Shown: positions 1,112 to 39,144, counted from the first letter of the stretch. The stretch is 52,176 bases of DNA from Methanobrevibacter sp. (GCF_017468685.1 NZ_JAFUHT010000068.1:1-52176), one strand, 5' to 3'. Notes: generated by a model from the letters alone, not told the origin. Made by a program: numbers and translations.

Positions 1112-3169
1112 TTAATTGTGATATGGTTCACAACTTTGTCTTGACAATGCATGTTTGTGGGCATGCATATGTTTTACGCCGTTTTCGGTTTCAATCTCAT
1201 CAAGGATTTCGACACCTTCGTGAGAATGAGTGTGTTCTCCGTCGTTGTGGAAGTGGTAATGTGAATGTTCCACATTTTCAGTGTCGACCTTTTTGATTGA
1301 ATCGTCAAAGTGTCTGTCATATAATAAAGCTGCATTTAAAACAACAAGACATGATCCTGCATTGTGAACGATTGCTCCTGTTACAGGATTAAGCAGTCCC
1401 AGTACAGAACAGACAATAGCTACAGCATTGATTGTCATTGAAATAGCAATGTTTGCCTTGATTGTGAATAATGTTGAGTTTGACAGTTTTTTGAGGTATG
1501 GTATCTTACCGATGTCATCACCTAAAAGTGCAATGTCTGCTGCCTCGATTGCAACATCACTTCCAACAGATCCCATTGCCACACTAACGTCAGCAGTTTT
1601 AAGTGCAGGTGCATCATTTACACCATCACCAATCATACAGACCTTCTTGCCTTCGTTTTTGAGTTTTTCAATCCAGTCAAGCTTTTCCTGTGGCAATAGA
1701 TTACCGTAGACTTTACCTATTCCAACTTGTGATGCAAAGTAATTAGCAGTTTCTGTGTTATCTCCTGTGAGCAGTATAGTTTCAGTATCCAAATCATGTA
1801 AACTTTGAATCATGCTTTTGGAATCTTCACGAATCACATCAGATAAACCAATCAAACCGATGACTTCATCATTTAATGCAACGATTATTGAAGCTTTTCC
1901 TTCATGTTTCAGTTTGTCCAAGTAACTGTCAACATTTACATCAATATCATTTTCATATAAGAATTTGGAGTTTCCTGCATATACCTGACCATAAGAATTT
2001 TTACATGCAACACCTTTTCCAGGATACATCTTAAAGTCTTGTGGTTCTTCAATATCAATTTCAGCTTCAATTGCATTATTGACAATAGCCTTAGCCAATG
2101 GATGCTCACTTAATTTTTCACAGGATGCAGTGAGTTTAACCAAATCAAGCTCACTGATATCATCTTTAACGGAGATAACATCAGAAACTTCTAAATTACC
2201 GTAAGTTAAAGTTCCGGTCTTATCAAATACCAAAGTATTTAAACCGCCCAAAGTTTCAAGTGCCTCACCGGATTTAATCAATACTCCGTATTTTGTTGCC
2301 TGACCTATAGCAGCCATGATTGCAGTTGGAGTAGCCAATATCAATGCACATGGACAGAAAACAACCAAAACAGTAACTCCTCTTTCAATATTTCCTGTAA
2401 CAAGCCATGCCACAATTGCAATTATCAGTGCAACCGGAACCAGCCAAGTAGCCCATTTATCAGCAATTCTTTGTGTCGGCGCCTGTTTTTCATCAGCTGC
2501 CTTTACAAGATCGATTAATTTTTGAAGTGAAGAGTTTTCACCCAAACTGGTTGCCTTAATATCAATTGCACCATACATATTCATGGTTCCACAAAATACT
2601 TCATCTCCAACTTCCTTATCAATTGGTAAAGATTCTCCAGTCATGATTGATTGGTCAAGGGAACTTGTACCATTTATTATTTCACCATCCACAGGTACAC
2701 TTTCACCAGGAAGTATCCTTAATGTATCACCTATTTTTATTGCATCAACAGGTACAATTTCCTCAACACCATTTAAAATTCTTCTTCCTGTTTGAGGAGT
2801 TAAATTAATTAGATTTCTTAAACCTTTTTTAGCTCTTTCAACTGTCCAATCCTCAAGAAGTGCTCCCAATGCCATAATCCAAGCAACTTCTCCGGCTGCG
2901 AATATTTCGCCAATTAAAAGTGATGCCACCATAGCAATTGCAATGAGCAATGCAGAAGAAATCCATTTTTCACGAATCAGTCTTGTTAAAGCTAAAAGCA
3001 ACATTGGAATACCACTTATTATCACTGTTCCCCATGCTGGATCCAGATAGGTAGGTACTTTTATTCCAAAAATCATGAAAATAATTGCAATCAACAGAAA
3101 TATACCTGAAATAATTGTCATTTTTAATCCAAATAAGAAATCTGTTATTTCATCTATCACTTTATACAC
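1112..3169 (-). CDS. P1B-type heavy-metal translocating ATPase
   Basis: Membrane pump that drives metal-ion transport with ATP. Seen in order: N-terminal membrane helices, actuator motif TGES (about residue 178), the transmembrane metal site CPC in VVFCPCAL (about 272), phosphorylation motif DKTGTLT (about 315) and hinge GDGVNDAP (about 513). There is no N-terminal CxxC metal-binding domain; instead the C-terminal tail is rich in His (HSHYHFHNDGEHTHSH), which suggests a divalent metal such as Zn2+. The last helices read HNAGSCLVVLN rather than the Zn-type D-x-G signature, so the metal is not settled. The frame opens at GTG 3169; GTG 3160 (codon 4) has AAGGTG at better spacing and may be the true start. 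Upstream lies an unusual operator array. Confidence 0.9.
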   Translation of the reverse strand: MYKVIDEITDFLFGLKMTIISGIFLLIAIIFMIFGIKVPTYLDPAWGTVIISGIPMLLLALTRLIREKWISSALLIAIAMVASLLIGEIFAAGEVAWIMALGALLEDWTVERAKKGLRNLINLTPQTGRRILNGVEEIVPVDAIKIGDTLRILPGESVPVDGEIINGTSSLDQSIMTGESLPIDKEVGDEVFCGTMNMYGAIDIKATSLGENSSLQKLIDLVKAADEKQAPTQRIADKWATWLVPVALIIAIVAWLVTGNIERGVTVLVVFCPCALILATPTAIMAAIGQATKYGVLIKSGEALETLGGLNTLVFDKTGTLTYGNLEVSDVISVKDDISELDLVKLTASCEKLSEHPLAKAIVNNAIEAEIDIEEPQDFKMYPGKGVACKNSYGQVYAGNSKFLYENDIDVNVDSYLDKLKHEGKASIIVALNDEVIGLIGLSDVIREDSKSMIQSLHDLDTETILLTGDNTETANYFASQVGIGKVYGNLLPQEKLDWIEKLKNEGKKVCMIGDGVNDAPALKTADVSVAMGSVGSDVAIEAADIALLGDDIGKIPYLKKLSNSTLFTIKANIAISMTINAVAIVCSVLGLLNPVTGAIVHNAGSCLVVLNAALLYDRHFDDSIKKVDTENVEHSHYHFHNDGEHTHSHEGVEILDEIETENGVKHMHAHKHALSRQSCEPYHN

Positions 3170-3712: not shown

Positions 3713-4840
3713 CTAATGTTTCATGGCCAAATCCATTATACTGAATGGATCACCTTCTTTTTTAGGTGCAGGAGCACCCAATCCAAATGCTGATTTTGCA
3801 AATTCCTTATTCATTCTTTTTGAAACTTCATCAAAAATCATTTTATAAGCTGTACATTGAGGATCAACAGCTTTTGGAGTTTGATATGCAACAATCGCAT
3901 TGTAAGGACATCCTCCTTCACAGTATTTCACATGTCGGCATTTCTTACAATTTTCATCAACATACTGCCTAAATTCCATGAGCTTTGCCCATGCATCAGA
4001 AGATTTCAAATCATCAAAACTTGGATTTTGAGAAACATTACCCAAAACATACTCATCCATACCAACAAATCTGTAACATGGATAAATAGAACCATCAAAA
4101 CCGACAGCCAAAGTTGTTCCTATACAGTCGGCAAATGTGCAAAGAGTTCCTCTTCTTCTCAATGAGCTTTTGCAGATATGGTCCAAATCCATTACTGTGA
4201 ATTTATCCAAGTCATAAAGATATTTGTCCAACCATTCAACAAGCAATTTGCCATGTTCTTCCTGATCAAGCGCCCAAGGATCTGCATTGTCTCCCCTTAA
4301 AGAAGGAAGAGCTGCATGAATCTTCAGATTCATCTTTTCATTTTTAAAGAAATCATACAGTTCATCTGAGAAATCTTTGGAGTAATCAGTTACAGTCAAA
4401 ACAAAATTGATTATAAGACCCTTATCCTTAGCCAATCGGAATTTGGACATTGTCTTGTCAAAGTAGCCCTCACCTCTCTGGAAATCATTGATTTTTTTAG
4501 GTCCGTCAATACTTGTACTTACAACAACATTATATTTTAAAAATAAGTCAATCAGTTCATCTGTTAAAAGCCAAATATTACTTTGAAGTGAGAATCCTTC
4601 AAGATTAGGTAATTTTGACAGTTTTTCAAGAGCCTCTTTATAAAAATCATAACCTGCAAGTAACGGTTCCCCACCATGGAAAGTGAAATGAACTTTATCA
4701 TCTCTAAAATCACTTAACCAGTAAATTAACTGGTCAATTATTTCCAAATCCATCATTTCTTTTTTATTTTCAGAACCCCAACAATATTTGCAATTTGACG
4801 GACAGTTTAAAGTAGGGATAATCATTACATGAAATGTCAT
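3713..4840 (-). CDS. Radical SAM/SPASM peptide-modifying enzyme
   Basis: Radical S-adenosylmethionine enzyme of 375 aa. The CxxxCxxC motif that holds the catalytic 4Fe-4S cluster is at C13, C17 and C20 (NCPSNCKYC), followed by the radical SAM barrel with FHGGEPLL. The C-terminal half has SPASM-type cysteines (CTFADC, YPCYRF, then CKKCRHVKYCEGGCPYN and a last DPQC) for auxiliary clusters. It is of the anaerobic sulfatase-maturase/peptide-maturase type and, as I recall, matches the methanogen family TIGR04083 paired with a Cys-rich peptide. The peptide gene is directly upstream with a 1-base gap, suggesting coupled translation. Substrate and product are unknown; the peptide is the obvious candidate. 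No sulfatase gene is in the window. Confidence 0.88.
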   Translation of the reverse strand: MTFHVMIIPTLNCPSNCKYCWGSENKKEMMDLEIIDQLIYWLSDFRDDKVHFTFHGGEPLLAGYDFYKEALEKLSKLPNLEGFSLQSNIWLLTDELIDLFLKYNVVVSTSIDGPKKINDFQRGEGYFDKTMSKFRLAKDKGLIINFVLTVTDYSKDFSDELYDFFKNEKMNLKIHAALPSLRGDNADPWALDQEEHGKLLVEWLDKYLYDLDKFTVMDLDHICKSSLRRRGTLCTFADCIGTTLAVGFDGSIYPCYRFVGMDEYVLGNVSQNPSFDDLKSSDAWAKLMEFRQYVDENCKKCRHVKYCEGGCPYNAIVAYQTPKAVDPQCTAYKMIFDEVSKRMNKEFAKSAFGLGAPAPKKEGDPFSIMDLAMKH

Positions 4841-32840: not shown

Positions 32841-32865
32841 TCCAACTTAATTAGTAGTTGGATTA
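32838..32865. terminator. Bidirectional terminator hairpin
   Basis: TAATCCAACT (32838-32847) and AGTTGGATTA (32856-32865) are perfect 10-bp arms around 8 bases, between the convergent 160-aa gene and lonB and covering the lonB stop. Confidence 0.6.
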
Positions 32866-34826
32866 TTAATTTTTGTTTGTGGAACTTTTTCTGCAACTCT
32901 GGAACCGATGTTTTTCATTTTTTCAATTAGTTTATCCTTATTGGATCCGCTGATTAAAATATTTTCTAAAACATCACTCAAGGTTTCAGTTGGAATAATT
33001 TCAATCATTTCTTCGTATTTCTTCTCAATCATAACATCTTTCAAGTTGGATTTTGGAATCAATACTTTTTTCATTCCTGCTTCTGCGGCCGCTTCGATTT
33101 TAGCGGTTGCTCCACCGATAGGCATTACATCTCCACGCACATTTAGTGAACCGGTCAATGCAACAGTCTGGTCTATTGGAATTTCTTCAATTGCAGATAT
33201 TACAGCAGTTGCTATACTTACACTAGCTGAGTCACCTTCCACACCATCATATGTTTGGATGAACTGAACGTGAATGTCGTAGTTGGAAATGTCCTTGTTG
33301 GTGTATTTCTTAATCAATGCACTAACGTTTTGAACAGATTCCTGTGCAATTTCACCTAATTTACCGGTAGCGATTATCTGACCACCGCTTTTTGATTGTG
33401 TCGGTGCAGCTTCTGCTGCGATTGGTGATACAATTCCACTTCTGTCACCTATTACTGCAAGACCGTTTACAAGACCAACTCTTCCCCCTTCAGATGATAC
33501 CATACTGTAATCTTTTCTTTGCAATATGGATCTGTCAGCGATTTGCTGTTCAAGAGTTCTTGCGAATCTTTTTGCTTCATATACATGTTCTGCAGTTACA
33601 AGTTCTGCTCCTTTTTCTATTGCAACATCTCCTGCAGACCTGACTAATCCGCCTAAATCACGTAATCTTAAGGTTAATGCATTTTGTTTTCCAGATCTTC
33701 TTTTTGCTTCCATGATTATTTCATCCAATGCATCTGGAGCAAAGTGAGGAATTCTTCCATCGTTTTTGACTTCCTGTGCTACGAACTGAACAAGTTTTTC
33801 TCTGTTTTCAGTTGTGTCTTCCATGTAGTCTTTCATAAATACTTCGTAACCGTATCCTCTGATTCTGGACCTCATTGCAATGTGCATTCCTTCCAATACT
33901 TGAAGGTTTCCTGATGCTACAAGCACAAAGTCACATGGTACTGCCTGGGACCTTACCATAGCACCACTTGAGTTTTCACTTTGACCAGTAATTGCATATT
34001 TTTTCTCCTGCATTGCAGATAATAATTCCTGTTGGGTTTTCATACTCATTGTACCGATTTCGTCAATGTATAAAACTCCACGGTTAGCTTTGTGAATCAT
34101 TCCTGCTTCTACACGTTCGTGTGCAGGTGTACCTAATCCTCCGGATTGATATGGGTCGTGACGTACGTCCCCTAATAATGCTCCTGCATGAGCTCCTGTT
34201 GCATCCATGAATGGTGCAAATCTGGATTCCTGATTATTCACCAATAATTTTGGAGACATGTTATTGGTTTTTGGTTTAATTTGTATTGATATGAGTAAGA
34301 TTAATGCTGCTGCAATGATTGATTCGAGTAATCTTCCATACATGAATCCTATTACAAGGATTCCTCCAATTGCAAACATTGTTATTATGGTCTTTCTTTC
34401 TTCGTGACCTTTTGCTGAGCCTTTTGTTGCACTTACTATTTTTTTACCTTCTCCAGCAGGCACTGATCTTATTAATGGGTGGTTGTTGTCTTCCATATTA
34501 GGGTATACTAAAATATCTTGAAGGGTTTCATGAGGTAATATCTGAGCCATACCTTTTGCAAGCATTGATTTTCCAACACCTGGATCACCAATAAGCAAAA
34601 CGTTTCTTCTTTGTTTTGCTGCTTTTTTAATTGTCTCGATGGACTCTTCGTGTCCGATTACCTGATCAATTAATAAAGGCGGAACTTCAATATCCTGTGA
34701 GCTTTTAATATTATTATAATCTAACATAGGTTTGGTTTCTTCACCAGCATTATTTTCTGTGACTTCTGGTTCAACTACTACATCGTTAGAAGAATCTTCA
34801 ATTGATTCGTTTTCTTCAAATTTCAT
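32847..34826 (-). CDS. lonB: Archaeal Lon protease (LonB)
   Basis: Membrane-bound ATP-dependent serine protease, 659 aa. Walker A is [16 protein letters not shown] (about residue 80). Two hydrophobic segments ([15 protein letters not shown] and [15 protein letters not shown], about 148-180) are inserted inside the AAA domain, the mark of archaeal LonB. The protease domain has the catalytic Ser in [11 protein letters not shown] and Lys in [10 protein letters not shown]. It degrades misfolded proteins. ATG 34826 has GAGGTT upstream; the two extra codons from TTG 34832 are not needed. Confidence 0.96.
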
Positions 34827-35157
34827 TAACAAACCTCACTTCTTTTAAAATTCATCATTAAACAATTAAGTTACAAATACTATATAAATATTATTAAGTT
34901 CAATATATATAAAAAGTTTTCGATTTTAGTAATAAAAAGTAACTAAAAGATTTGTATTTTTGAATAGTTGTAACTTTTTTGACCAGTTTATAACATTAAT
35001 ATATATCCATAATCATAATTCTTAGTAAGTATTCTAATACAGTTAAAAGAGACCCTCAAACTTCATAAAATCCTATTTTAGCTTTATTTTTCATATTTTT
35101 ATTATAAAATTTAAATTAAACTTCATCAAAAAGATTTTTGAAAGAATACGAATATAA
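34827..35157. other. Intergenic region with the lonB promoter
   Basis: The minus strand has a TATA box (ATATTTATATAGT, about 34880-34892) that would start lonB transcription near 34860. The rest is AT-rich with several copies of GTTAC/GTAAC words (near 34868, 34938, 34969) that might be protein sites. No reading frame supported. Confidence 0.5.
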
Positions 35158-35187
35158 CATATCGATATATTTAAATATATCAATATG
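35158..35187 (+). promoter_or_regulatory. Near-perfect 30-bp palindrome over the arsR promoter
   Basis: The stretch runs from CATATCGATATA through the centre TTTAAA to TATATCAATATG, with only one mismatched pair. The TTTAAATATAT core is also the TATA box; its centre (about 35172) puts transcription start near 35198, right at the arsR ATG. ArsR proteins bind AT-rich inverted repeats of this kind, so autoregulation is likely. Confidence 0.65.
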
Positions 35188-35199
35188 ATATTAATAGAT

Positions 35200-35541
35200 A
35201 TGGCAATTGAAAATAATGATGAAAGCTGTGAGGTATGCTGTTCAGTTGAAGACCTAATCATGACATTGCCTTCGGATGAAACCATTGAAAACAATGCTGC
35301 TGTACTTAAGTCCTTAGCTGACCCGACAAGACTTAAAATAATATATCTCTTGAAAAATGGTGAACTGTGTGTCTGCCAGATACTGGAAGCTATAGACAAG
35401 TCCCAGTCAACAATATCCCATCATCTAAACATGATGAAAAAGGAAGGAGTTCTCTCAGCACGAAAACAGGGAAAATGGATTTACTACAAACTTGCCAATG
35501 AAAACATCATTGACAGCCTTGAAGAGATATTTGAAAACTAA
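35200..35541 (+). CDS. ArsR family metal-sensing repressor
   Basis: A 113-aa winged-helix repressor. After an acidic N-terminus with CEVCCS come KSLADPTRLKIIYLLKNGELCVCQIL (the ELCVC metal site on helix 3 of ArsR proteins) and the recognition helix QSTISHHLNMMKKEGVL. It would release DNA on binding As(III), Sb(III), Cd/Pb or a related ligand. The frame opens at ATG 35185, inside the palindrome; TATA spacing favours ATG 35200 as a leaderless start. It is the first gene of a four-gene operon with gaps of 0-5 bases. Confidence 0.9.
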   Translation: MAIENNDESCEVCCSVEDLIMTLPSDETIENNAAVLKSLADPTRLKIIYLLKNGELCVCQILEAIDKSQSTISHHLNMMKKEGVLSARKQGKWIYYKLANENIIDSLEEIFEN

Positions 35542-35930
35542 TGGTGATGACAATGGATGAAAAAATAGCTTTGGCTTCATGCAACAGAATGAGTGCCAAT
35601 GGACTGGTGTCACGCGTTGCAGTAGGAGACTGCAAAAAGGAAAACACAAATGTAATATCAATATGCATGGGATCAACCGCAGCAGACACCGAAGGGCAAA
35701 ACGACAGCATGCTCAGGAAATTTCCGATTATTGCAATCAACGGATGCAACAACGCATGTGCCAACAGGATTTTAAATAGCAGAGAAATTGAAATTCACAA
35801 AACAATCGGCGTTGGAGATGTTCTCAAGGAACACAAAGCCTTTGCAACAGATCCATTCCGTTTGGACAGTAATGGGGAAAAATGCGTGGAAATCATTAAA
35901 AACAAAATCAATGAAGAAATGGAGGAATGA
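35541..35930 (+). CDS. DGC-domain (putative zinc-binding) protein
   Basis: About 129 aa. The pattern CNRMSANGLVSRVAVGDC, then SICMGSTAAD, IIAINGCNNACANRIL and HKTIGVGDVLKE matches the DGC domain named after its D/N-G-C motif, a family of conserved-Cys proteins with suspected zinc binding. The ATG overlaps the arsR stop (TAATG); ATG 35553, with GGTGAT before it, is an alternative. In an ArsR operon its Cys residues could hold the sensed metal(loid). Function is unproven. Confidence 0.8.
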   Translation: MVMTMDEKIALASCNRMSANGLVSRVAVGDCKKENTNVISICMGSTAADTEGQNDSMLRKFPIIAINGCNNACANRILNSREIEIHKTIGVGDVLKEHKAFATDPFRLDSNGEKCVEIIKNKINEEMEE

Positions 35931-35934
35931 TATA

Positions 35935-36330
35935 ATGGATTATTTTGATAATGAAATTTGGCAAAAATGGGCAAACAACAATTATGACGAATTCAAGTCA
36001 CTTAAAAACGGTGCAAAAATGGCAATGCTTCTGCCAGATACAGACAACCTAATAGTCTTAACCAAAGGCGATGAAATCACAGTCAGAATCGATGACCGTA
36101 ACAATTTCAATTTTCCATTTGCCCAAATTGCTTTCAAGTTCCAAGAAAATACCGTTGATAAAGTACTGGGCGATTCAACATTCAAGACATTCAAAAATCT
36201 CACAACTGATGATCAGATAGGTATCCTCTCATTTGTCGATGAAATCACCCTTAACAGATTCGATTACAGACACTTCCTGAAAAAATTCGGCTTTGAGATA
36301 GGTTCAGGCTGCAGCTGCGGGTGTTGCTGA
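35935..36330 (+). CDS. Hypothetical protein with Cys-rich tail
   Basis: A 131-aa protein starting MDYFDNEIWQKWANNNYDEF, not recognised. The body is soluble, with LPDTDNLIVLTKGDEITVRIDD and DEITLNRFDYRHFLKKFGFE. The last residues are GSGCSCGCC, four Cys in six positions, an obvious soft-metal ligand or redox site. GGAGG precedes the ATG; a longer frame from 35788 overlaps the DGC gene and is rejected. Its stop abuts the next gene's ATG. Confidence 0.78.
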   Translation: MDYFDNEIWQKWANNNYDEFKSLKNGAKMAMLLPDTDNLIVLTKGDEITVRIDDRNNFNFPFAQIAFKFQENTVDKVLGDSTFKTFKNLTTDDQIGILSFVDEITLNRFDYRHFLKKFGFEIGSGCSCGCC

Positions 36331-37149
36331 ATGGCAGACAACTGGAACTTCGATGGACTGGTCCAAGACGTGCTGATCAAATCAAACAGCAATTCCTGCT
36401 GTGCAGATGTTTCATTTCCAGACACATCAAGAATAGAAAACCCTATAAGTCCAATCGATTATATTACAAAAGAATTTCTCGATGATTTTGAAATCTATCT
36501 TAAGCAGTTAGGTGTTGTTGAAATAGCTTATGTTGATGACATAAAAGAGTATTTCATGCACGGCCTTGATTTTGATTTCACATCCGCTATCGTATTTTCA
36601 TATGAAATCAGCCAACGCATACATGAAGTGGGTGCAGGAGCCAAAGCACAGGAATACAACAATGACCTTTATAGGGACTTTGGAAACCTTGCATATAAGA
36701 TTTCAGACTATCTGAGGCTTAGAGGATTTGAAACATTGGTTGCACATCCTCGTGAAGAGACAATTGACTTTTCACATCTCGCTCTAAAAGCAGGAATGGG
36801 CGCAATAGGAAAAAGCGGATTGCTTATAAGTCCTGAAATCGGACCAAACCAGAAGATAGCTGCAATACTGGTCAACATAATTAACCTTCCAGTTTCTGAA
36901 AATAATTCCTATGAGTGGATTCCTGATTATTGCAACTACTGTAACTTATGTGTTCGAGCATGTCCAAATGATGCTTTAATACTGGATAGGAAGACAAAAA
37001 CTGTTAGATTTAAAGAAAAACTATGTATAGGATGCAGCGAAGGTTGTACAGAATGCATTCAGGCATGCCCTTTCTACAAGAAAGGATATGATACTGTTTT
37101 TGAAAAATACGAAAAGATAAAAAGAAAATCCAAAAAAGTTATTGAATAA
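36331..37149 (+). CDS. QueG-like iron-sulfur protein
   Basis: A 272-aa protein. It has an epoxyqueuosine-reductase/reductive-dehalogenase-like domain with DFSHLALKAGMGAIGKSGLLISPEIGPNQKIAAILVNI (about 150-190) and two C-terminal cluster motifs, CNYCNLCVRACP and CIGCSEGCTECIQACP. In QueG this fold binds cobalamin and two 4Fe-4S clusters; the HEAT repeats of true QueG are absent. As last gene of the ArsR operon it may reduce a metal(loid) or an organic substrate rather than a tRNA base; this is inference. Confidence 0.8.
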   Translation: MADNWNFDGLVQDVLIKSNSNSCCADVSFPDTSRIENPISPIDYITKEFLDDFEIYLKQLGVVEIAYVDDIKEYFMHGLDFDFTSAIVFSYEISQRIHEVGAGAKAQEYNNDLYRDFGNLAYKISDYLRLRGFETLVAHPREETIDFSHLALKAGMGAIGKSGLLISPEIGPNQKIAAILVNIINLPVSENNSYEWIPDYCNYCNLCVRACPNDALILDRKTKTVRFKEKLCIGCSEGCTECIQACPFYKKGYDTVFEKYEKIKRKSKKVIE

Positions 37150-37608
37150 TCAACAGAGAATTGAACAGATTAAATAGTGGATGTGGATTATAGCATCCAA
37201 CATGATTAATCCAGACTGATTTCAAACAGTATGAGTAAAACAATTTTAATAGCAGATTGTAACAATTTCGAATAAAAATAATATTCATATCAATATAAAT
37301 ATTATTAAAATTTAACCACCTTTTTTATATAAAATAATATTAAAAAACTTTAAATAAATAAATTAATAATATTGACTAAAAACAGTCAATAATATATACT
37401 ATAATTATTATAATTAATTATTACAAGATAAATTTTCAATAATTTATTCTTGTTAATCGAGTTTGCAGGCATGGTTTTACATCAGTCTTTATATATAGTA
37501 TTAGAGTATTATTTAAACCCCAGATTTATTGTAAACTTCATGCCTCAAATGAGATTAATTTTAACTCATTTTTAAATTATTTATAATATTAATGCAATAT
37601 CATTATAC
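37150..37608. other. Intergenic region before cbiP
   Basis: No reading frame or cobalamin riboswitch is visible. Near the end, a TATA box (TTATTTATAAT, about 37575-37586) lies about 27 bases before the cbiP ATG, which fits a leaderless transcript. AAATGAG (37548-37554) and CTCATTT (37566-37572) form a small inverted repeat. Confidence 0.5.
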
Positions 37609-39144
37609 ATGACAAACTGTATCATGGTTCAAGGAACATCATCAAATGCCGGAAAAAGTATGCTCGTAGCAGCACTCTGCAGAATATATAAAAACAGAGG
37701 ATATAAAGTCGCCCCTTTTAAATCCCAAAACATGTCACTGAACTCCTACACCACAAAGGAAAACGGTGAAATAGGAATAGCACAGATGCTGCAGGCAGAA
37801 GCGGCAATGATTGAACCAAGCATACACATGAATCCTGTTCTTCTAAAGCCAAAAGGAGACTTTACATCAAACGTGATTATACAGGGAAAATCCATCGGAA
37901 ACATGAACTTCTATGATTACCAGCACAAATACCATGATACAGCATTTGATGCCATAAAGGACAGCTTTAAAAAACTATCCGATGAATATGATGTCATAAT
38001 CATTGAAGGTGCAGGATCACCTGCTGAAATCAACATGCGTGACCAGGATATTGCAAATATGGAAATAGCACACCTTGCAGATGCAAATGTCATATTAATT
38101 GCAGACATTGAAATGGGAGGAGTATTTGCAGCAATAGCAGGAACTTATGTCTTATTGGACGATTATGACAGGTCACGTCTTAAGGCGACTGTAATCAACA
38201 AGTTTCGAGGAAACCTTGATATTTTAAAGCCCGGCCTTGACAGGATTGAGGAAATTACTGGAGAGCCTGTTTTGGGAGTTCTTCCATATGATGAAACATT
38301 GAAATTGCCCGAAGAAGATTCCGCTTCCCTAACAACACATGTATTTGCAGAGGACAGAGACATTACCATTGGAGTTATCAGACTGCCAAAAATAGCCAAT
38401 TTCACAGACATTGATCCCTTCGAGTATGAAGATGATGTGGCCCTTAAAATGATTGGAGTTAATGATAATATCGGTGACGTTGATGCGATAATCATTCCTG
38501 GAACACGTAACTCCACAGAAGATATGTATGCACTGCGTGAAAGCGGCCTTGCAGATAAAATCATTGAAAAATCCTCAGAAATCCCAATTGTTGGAATCTG
38601 TGGAGGACTGCAGATATTAGGTAATGTGATTCATGATGATGAAAAACGTGAATCCAAACATGGTACTCTTGAGGGATTAGGTCTTTTAGACATTGAATCA
38701 AAGTTTTCAAGAGTAGAAAAGATAGTTACACAATCAGAAGCTACAATACCTGAAGAGATTGAAGGAATCGCAGGCGAAATATTTAAAAACATTTCCGGTG
38801 AAACAGTTACAGGCTATGAGATTCATGAAGGAACAAGCAAACTTGAAAGTGCAAGTCCACTTTTCAATATCACTAAAGGTCAGGGAAACAATGAGGATGG
38901 TCTAATCGATGGAGCAGCAAATGGAAATGCATTTGCAACTTACTTCCACGGAATATTCCACAACTACAATTTCAGAAGAGAATTCCTGAACTATATCCGT
39001 GTTAAAAAAGGCCTTGAAGCAAAATATGGTGAAGACCCTTACGAAACCCAAAAAGACTATTCACTAAACAGATTGGCTGAAATCGTGGAAGAGCATCTTG
39101 ATATGGATGTTATTGATAACTTAATTTTTGGCAAAAAAGAGTAA
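37609..39144 (+). CDS. cbiP: Cobyric acid synthase
   Basis: A 511-aa amidotransferase that amidates adenosyl-cobyrinic acid diamide at four side chains in cobamide synthesis; methanogens need cobamides for methyl transfer (Mtr). The N-terminal synthetase domain starts MVQGTSSNAGKSMLVAALCR (P-loop) and FKSQNMSLNS; the C-terminal glutaminase-like domain has the nucleophile in VGICGGLQILG (about residue 330) and the His in FHGIFHN. It stands alone here. Start as given, leaderless. Confidence 0.95.
   Translation: MTNCIMVQGTSSNAGKSMLVAALCRIYKNRGYKVAPFKSQNMSLNSYTTKENGEIGIAQMLQAEAAMIEPSIHMNPVLLKPKGDFTSNVIIQGKSIGNMNFYDYQHKYHDTAFDAIKDSFKKLSDEYDVIIIEGAGSPAEINMRDQDIANMEIAHLADANVILIADIEMGGVFAAIAGTYVLLDDYDRSRLKATVINKFRGNLDILKPGLDRIEEITGEPVLGVLPYDETLKLPEEDSASLTTHVFAEDRDITIGVIRLPKIANFTDIDPFEYEDDVALKMIGVNDNIGDVDAIIIPGTRNSTEDMYALRESGLADKIIEKSSEIPIVGICGGLQILGNVIHDDEKRESKHGTLEGLGLLDIESKFSRVEKIVTQSEATIPEEIEGIAGEIFKNISGETVTGYEIHEGTSKLESASPLFNITKGQGNNEDGLIDGAANGNAFATYFHGIFHNYNFRREFLNYIRVKKGLEAKYGEDPYETQKDYSLNRLAEIVEEHLDMDVIDNLIFGKKE

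Follow-up and report, generated by a model that had tools for sequence, protein, structure and literature searches.

A compact, mobile ArsR-controlled cassette of Methanobrevibacter with a predicted corrinoid-type reductive enzyme is a candidate arsenic-response operon

We analyzed a stretch of 52,176 nucleotides from Methanobrevibacter sp. (GCF_017468685.1 NZ_JAFUHT010000068.1:1-52176), hereafter called the window, which carries a cassette of four intact genes on the plus strand. The homologous loci in the named collection belong to Methanobrevibacter without exception. With somewhat more confidence than doubt, we read this cassette as a compact, mobile arsenic-response (ars-type) operon that is carried as provirus cargo and encodes a corrinoid-type reductive enzyme. 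The genes encode an ArsR repressor, a DGC-domain protein, a protein of 131 amino acids and an Fe-S protein (Table 1). The tight packing described in an earlier, sequence-only reading was confirmed, with gaps of at most 4 bp: the spacing is 4 bp between the DGC gene and the 131-aa gene, 0 bp between the latter and the Fe-S gene, and -1 bp (or +11 bp, by the DGC start used) between arsR and the DGC gene. An ATG upstream of arsR at 35185 is absent from the copy in genome G066, which makes the arsR start listed in Table 1 the likelier one. As the same reading had stated, there is no pump, ArsC or ArsM gene among the four, and the operon is not a classic ars operon; lacking these genes, the Methanobrevibacter cassette cannot act as a classic efflux operon.

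Table 1. Features of the cassette and its neighbours, in positions of the window.
Feature	Position	Strand	Description	Basis
lonB	32847-34832	minus	left neighbour of the cassette	
inserted segment between lonB and cobQ, approximate extent	34962-37235	.	same site empty in 17 congeneric genomes	
near-perfect 30-bp palindrome CATATCGATATATTTAAATATATCAATATG	35158-35187	.	candidate ArsR operator; TATA-box-like TTTAAATA at centre	
arsR	35200-35541	+	ArsR/SmtB repressor; N-terminal Cys10/13/14, alpha-3 Cys57/Cys59 (ELCVC)	PF01022, NF033788
DGC-domain gene	35553-35930 (alternative start 35541)	+	invariant Cys 10, 38, 65, 69	PF08859
131-aa gene	35935-36330	+	predicted SCP2-like alpha/beta domain, disordered Cys-rich C-terminus	AlphaFold2, Foldseek
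Cys-rich tail CSCGCC of the 131-aa protein	36310-36327	+		
Fe-S gene, 272 aa	36331-37149	+	predicted compact class III cobalamin-type (RdhA/QueG-like) two-[4Fe-4S] reductase	AlphaFold2, Foldseek
Tyr114 codon of the Fe-S gene	36670-36672	+	aligned to PceA Tyr246, NpRdhA Tyr426	
Lys175 codon of the Fe-S gene	36853-36855	+	aligned to NpRdhA Lys488, PceA Arg305	
two 4Fe-4S motifs of the Fe-S gene	36931-37068	+	Cys201/204/207/211, Cys232/235/239/242/246	
cobQ	37609-39144	plus	right neighbour of the cassette	

Two further genes on the minus strand of the window were recorded. A heavy-metal translocating P-type ATPase (1112-3169; TIGR01525, 571.9 bits, above the cut-off) lies 32 kb from the cassette, with no adjoining arsR noticed. 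A peptide-modifying radical SAM enzyme of the TIGR04083 family (3713-4840; 593.5 bits, cut-off 300) adjoins an ORF of 69 amino acids that resembles a zinc ribbon.

The palindrome upstream of arsR had no match in 100 shuffles and is kept in all five of the other Methanobrevibacter copies checked. The arsR ATG is located about 25 bp downstream of TTTAAATA, an arrangement which likely represents a leaderless archaeal promoter with its TATA box covered by the repressor. With up to 3 mismatches allowed, a search of the assembly found no second operator, the palindrome being unique, and thus no wider regulon is seen. ArsR scores 70.8 bits against PF01022 and 98.4 bits against NF033788 (cut-off 55), and the solved chains closest to it are Lmo1102 and CadC. 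The metal ligands of CadC are Cys7, Cys11, Cys58 and Cys60 (PMC4287715). Cys10 with Cys13/14, together with Cys57/Cys59, occupy equivalent places in ArsR, which thus has the N-terminal Cys and the alpha-3 CXC of a CadC-like regulatory site. Among homologs Cys59 is conserved in 26/26, Cys57 in 24/26 and Cys10 in 20/22. As in classic ars operons, the first gene encodes an ArsR-family repressor with a thiolate metal(loid) site; a CadC-like Cys arrangement could also accommodate Cd, Pb, Zn, Sb or Bi.

The assignment to arsenic comes from relatives of the cassette. An alignment-based search found the enzyme family mainly in Methanobacteriales; in the other archaea sampled there were only three distant homologs (L182-L184, from other classes), none of them beside arsR or a DGC gene. 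Four genomes (L051, L052, L059 and L060) share the order oxidoreductase / arsM, enzyme, arsR, DGC, arsC-like, followed by DUF166 and acr3 where the contig continues; in L060 both the enzyme gene and acr3 are fragmented. The scores in L059 are 336.7 bits for ArsM (cut-off 263), 454.9 bits for Acr3 (cut-off 282.8) and 108.5 bits for the ArsC-like protein, which is below its cut-off of 174. Acr3 scores above the cut-off also in L056 and L054. ArsR and the enzyme are fused in a single frame in four genomes (L053, L057, L065 and L073), and in L056 the enzyme is fused to the 131-aa protein, beside Acr3. Altogether, 29 enzyme-family loci were sampled outside the Methanobrevibacter cassettes: arsR is adjacent, near or fused in 21, another ars gene is nearby in 11 and a DGC gene is adjacent or near in 9, counts which do not amount to a statistical test because the homologs are related. 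The enzyme homologs of Methanothermobacter are solitary and have no ars genes beside them; genomes with an enzyme homolog in the neighbouring family f2 are presumably of the Methanothermobacter type. The sequence-only reading had proposed a metal(loid) response module, and this part stands, narrowed to arsenic by the operon relatives with ArsM, ArsC-like and Acr3 genes, while its assignment of the enzyme as QueG-like does not (see below).

The same relatives bear on the alternative that the cassette sequesters a soft metal (Cd, Pb, Zn, Hg, Bi or Sb), with the DGC and 131-aa proteins acting like metallothioneins and the Fe-S protein keeping thiols or the metal reduced. The proximity of ArsR to CadC and Lmo1102, with its N-terminal Cys and CXC, would fit this, as would the Cys-rich tails of the 131-aa proteins and the Cys-rich N-terminus of the enzyme. 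However, relatives set the same genes beside the arsenic-specific ArsM, ArsC-like and Acr3 genes, the linked loci showed no recognisable pump for Cd or Zn, and the P-type ATPase of the window is 32 kb away. We consider sequestration of a soft metal unlikely.

The four genes recur as a unit. In a sample of 67 congeneric genomes the 131-aa protein is present in six, and the order arsR, DGC, 131-aa, enzyme is kept in five further Methanobrevibacter copies, two of them in G030 and one each in G006, G036 and G066; G063 has arsR, the 131-aa gene and the enzyme, with the DGC gene missing. Two genomes of a second genus of the same family (g20; L076 and L078) have the four genes in identical order, with about 35% identity for the 131-aa protein and the enzyme, and a further genus (g23) keeps the DGC-131aa pair (131-aa homolog in 15 genomes; five neighbourhoods checked). 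Between the window and its nearest copy, dN/dS is 0.07-0.14 across all four genes, showing that the cassette genes are under purifying selection. Since the gene order recurs, dN/dS is this low and the operator is absent from the shuffles, the cassette is not a product of chance. Linkage and fusions recur, so the refuting case named with the sequence-only reading, four genes unlinked in other genomes, does not apply.

Methanobrevibacter also has a separate core enzyme-DGC pair (L080, L081), in which the equivalents of Tyr114 and Lys175 are lost, so that this pair may be non-catalytic or differ in role. It occurs in the window's own genome (L081, 4967-6057; G000:C50) and in L080 as an enzyme paralog directly followed by the DGC gene, near a RadB-like gene. 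In the neighbouring family f2, a decayed pair of enzyme and 131-aa genes was seen in L138 (4218-5343; G043), beside DUF169-like genes that are found also in L056.

The site of the cassette in the window was compared with that of relatives. In at least 17 congeners (L084, L086-L088, L092, L093, L095, L100-L109) lonB directly adjoins cobQ, separated from it by about 0.5 kb and with no cassette between them. L084 aligns to the window at 34779-34961 and then at 37236-37637; because relatives align up to 34961 and resume at 37236, about 2.3 kb were inserted. DNA similarity among cassette copies is limited to window positions 35147-37137, and the surroundings differ. From these alignments, the cassette appears to be a small mobile unit, present in the window as an insertion between lonB and cobQ.

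Several copies lie in putative proviruses. The cassette follows the gene for the terminase large subunit in G030:C10 (L006; phrog_979, 279 bits) and likewise in G066, which carries the same, matching provirus (L014) at 83% DNA identity; a pseudomurein endoisopeptidase lies nearby. The surroundings of the copies in G030:C2 and G036 are 98% identical, and there the cassette lies in opposite orientation among the genes of another element, of which G006 holds a decayed remnant. A phage tail-fibre gene is recognisable in the G036 element (L009 provirus). With few recognisable phage genes, the surroundings in G030:C2, G036 and G006 are likewise read as a provirus, so the cassette would sometimes be carried in integrated viruses. 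Neither the 131-aa alignment nor that of the enzyme retrieved any relative from IMG/VR, and phage and plasmid collections gave distant matches of QueG/RdhA type only; the provirus assignment therefore draws entirely on loci from whole genomes. A portal-like reading of L009 13111-14421 was dropped, as Pfam (same gene in L007), PHROGs and PDB gave no confirmation. A group II intron reverse transcriptase/maturase (L006, 7061-8569; 336 bits) is located close to the provirus terminase in front of the G030:C10 cassette.

Carriage in or beside proviruses, partly in opposite orientation to the phage genes, would also be expected if the operon mainly aided the virus, through host takeover, superinfection exclusion or defence, and sensed metalloids only incidentally. 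We regard this as very improbable: non-viral versions occur on the chromosomes of other genera, within ars operons, and PADLOC matches only the DNA-binding domain of ArsR, which is shared with Csa3 and CARF regulators, and none of the other three proteins. As PADLOC matched this wing/DNA-binding domain only, a known defence system was rejected.

The Fe-S protein had been called QueG-like in the sequence-only reading, a label that had to be given up. It scores 40.2 bits against the QueG family TIGR00276 (cut-off 200) and thus less than the 54.1 bits against the reductive dehalogenase family TIGR02486 (cut-off 160.35), and both the fold ranking and the Lys of its active site place it nearer to the reductive dehalogenases. 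In Foldseek, the AlphaFold2 model (pLDDT 87, pTM 0.84; N-terminus disordered and Cys-containing) retrieved PceA, other reductive dehalogenases or QueG at ranks 1-46, followed by the B12 chaperone MMACHC; the best E-value, 3.6e-11, was to PceA. The predicted model shows the class III corrinoid fold with two 4Fe-4S clusters that characterises RdhA, and we infer the corrinoid itself. Eight of the nine 4Fe-4S Cys are invariant in 25 homologs. A profile alignment sets Tyr114 and Lys175 at the positions of the catalytic Tyr and Lys/Arg of PceA and NpRdhA (Table 1). In NpRdhA, Y426 and K488 are described as key for substrate binding and catalysis (PMC10463259). The Tyr by itself is shared by every class III enzyme (PMC4646009), and Lys175 is the dehalogenase-like feature. 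Taken together, the model and the alignment describe the protein as a predicted compact class III cobalamin (reductive-dehalogenase/QueG) protein with a dehalogenase-type Tyr/Lys pair. In the enzyme tree, the Methanobrevibacter cassette enzymes cluster with strong support, and the deeper forks are weak. One homolog (L066, 4990-6234) is fused to an N-terminal ferredoxin-like domain, and the next gene encodes a small redox-disulfide (MTH895-like) protein, which suggests a route of electron supply for the enzyme.

Two conventional functions of this fold were weighed. An epoxyqueuosine reductase (QueG) acting on tRNA, next to arsR by accident, would share the class III fold and the local similarity to TIGR00276, but the score is below the cut-off, the conserved catalytic Asp of QueG was not identified in the Fe-S protein, the enzyme is repeatedly fused to ArsR, and PMC4646009 describes queuosine synthesis as confined to bacteria. 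Moreover, the protein ends about 26 aa past the last Fe-S Cys and therefore has no QueG-type C-terminal tRNA-binding extension. The chance of such a function is vanishingly small, and QueG membership was rejected on the score, the missing extension and the ars gene context. An operon for the reductive dehalogenation of halogenated organics, with ArsR sensing thiol-reactive electrophiles, is quite improbable. It would agree with PCE dehalogenases as the best solved relatives, with the aligned Tyr/Lys pair and with the SCP2-like domain predicted for the 131-aa protein, as SCP2-like domains bind hydrophobic ligands. Against it, the N-terminus of the Fe-S protein has no RR motif of a Tat signal, the operon has no RdhB membrane-anchor gene, the score is far below the TIGR02486 cut-off, and the neighbours elsewhere are arsenic genes.

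The two proteins between ArsR and the enzyme are both rich in Cys. The DGC protein scores 50.1 bits against PF08859 (gathering threshold 27), and its four Cys listed in Table 1 are invariant in 18/18 homologs. The literal Asp-Gly-Cys motif is not present: of the 18 homologs, 16 have NGC and the other 2 TGC. A literature search for the DGC domain returned diguanylate cyclases, which share the name and are unrelated. For the 131-aa protein, no family in Pfam, NCBIfam or PHROGs scored above cut-off, and no solved structure matched by sequence. Its AlphaFold2 model has an overall pLDDT of 90.5, with values below 50 solely in the last seven residues, and SCP2 proteins, or enzymes with an SCP2 domain, fill the first 20 places in the Foldseek ranking; these matches are weak (best E 1.6e-3, query TM 0.36-0.47). 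The protein probably consists of an SCP2-like domain and a disordered Cys (thiolate) tail. The sequence-only reading had seen in it a soft-metal tail: the Cys tail is present, but it is not the whole protein, since the probable SCP2-like domain precedes it. Homologs end in CSCGCC, CCCC, CSCCCC or CCG, the tail being Cys-rich among close homologs and degenerate among distant ones. Paralogs in genus g20 (L126-L129) have degenerate Cys tails, with a MetE-like gene and small conserved genes in their vicinity and no ars context.

In the arsenic-response reading that we favour, ArsR would sit on the palindrome, which covers the TATA box, and would be released when a trivalent arsenical or a similar soft metalloid bridges its Cys. 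Release would allow the DGC, 131-aa and Fe-S proteins to be made. The DGC protein and the SCP2-like protein with its Cys tail may bind the arsenical and pass it on to the Fe-S protein, in which a cob(I)alamin-type corrinoid, fed by the two [4Fe-4S] clusters, would carry out a reductive transformation of the arsenical. Fold and active-site pattern of the enzyme are predicted, and we infer corrinoid content, substrate and product. The cassette would move as a unit, as cargo of Methanobrevibacter proviruses.

In the window's assembly, Acr3 reaches at best 124 bits (cut-off 282.8), no ArsM scores above cut-off, and ArsB and ArsP have no match; neither Acr3 nor ArsM scores above cut-off in any of the 67 congeners. 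The product should therefore leave the cell unaided or be harmless, for example as a volatile arsine, or as a dealkylated or stored form. A more specific version is tentative and rather doubtful as a whole: a new type of B12-dependent arsenic enzyme, a stand-alone class III cobalamin reductase supplied by two Cys-rich carriers, would reduce arsenicals beyond As(III), for example to arsine or methylarsines, or cleave As-C bonds in methanogens, and would have spread among gut methanogens as virus cargo. Pure cultures of methanogens, Methanothermobacter among them, are reported to form AsH3 (cited in PMC6882981), which makes the volatile-arsine idea testable, not proven.

The literature searched contains no description of this gene combination, although one may exist elsewhere; it appears that nobody has described a class III cobalamin-type enzyme in arsenic resistance, and the chemistry of the enzyme may well be new. 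To our knowledge, class III cobalamin enzymes are so far known for dehalogenation and queuosine synthesis. If the proposal is true, they would also serve arsenic resistance, and the enzyme would be a candidate gene for the unexplained reduction and volatilisation of arsenic by methanogens in guts, digesters and soils. Furthermore, archaeal proviruses would ferry metalloid-resistance cargo between gut methanogens, and two uncharacterised families, the DGC and the 131-aa SCP2-like proteins, would receive roles.

Parts of the cassette resemble known systems. The repressor shares with pI258 CadC and Lmo1102 the N-terminal Cys pair and the alpha-3 CXC, the layout of the CadC regulatory site; in contrast to these, it is archaeal and its candidate operator spans the TATA box, and some of its relatives in ars operons retain a single N-terminal Cys near that position. 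The enzyme is like RdhA (PceA, NpRdhA) and QueG in its predicted fold, its two C-terminal [4Fe-4S] clusters and in Tyr114/Lys175, which correspond to Tyr426/Lys488 of NpRdhA. It differs in consisting of the 272-aa core only, with a Cys-rich N-terminus and without Tat signal or RdhB, in staying below both family cut-offs and in its ars neighbourhood. With HgcAB it shares an idea, that of a corrinoid/Fe-S enzyme and Cys tails acting on a soft element in anaerobes; the corrinoid fold is another one, and the ferredoxin part alone matches NF043039 (22.6 bits, cut-off 285). The predicted fold of the 131-aa core resembles SCP2-like proteins (UbiJ-SCP2, AF1534, the C-terminal domain of alkylsulfatase), from which the protein differs in having no sequence match, a weak Foldseek E-value and an added Cys-rich tail. 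With classic ars operons the cassette shares ArsR control through a thiolate repressor, and those of other Methanobacteriaceae include the enzyme, ArsR and DGC families as members. In place of a pump, an arsenate reductase and a methyltransferase, however, the cassette has the DGC protein, the SCP2-like protein with its Cys tail and the predicted class III cobalamin-type enzyme.
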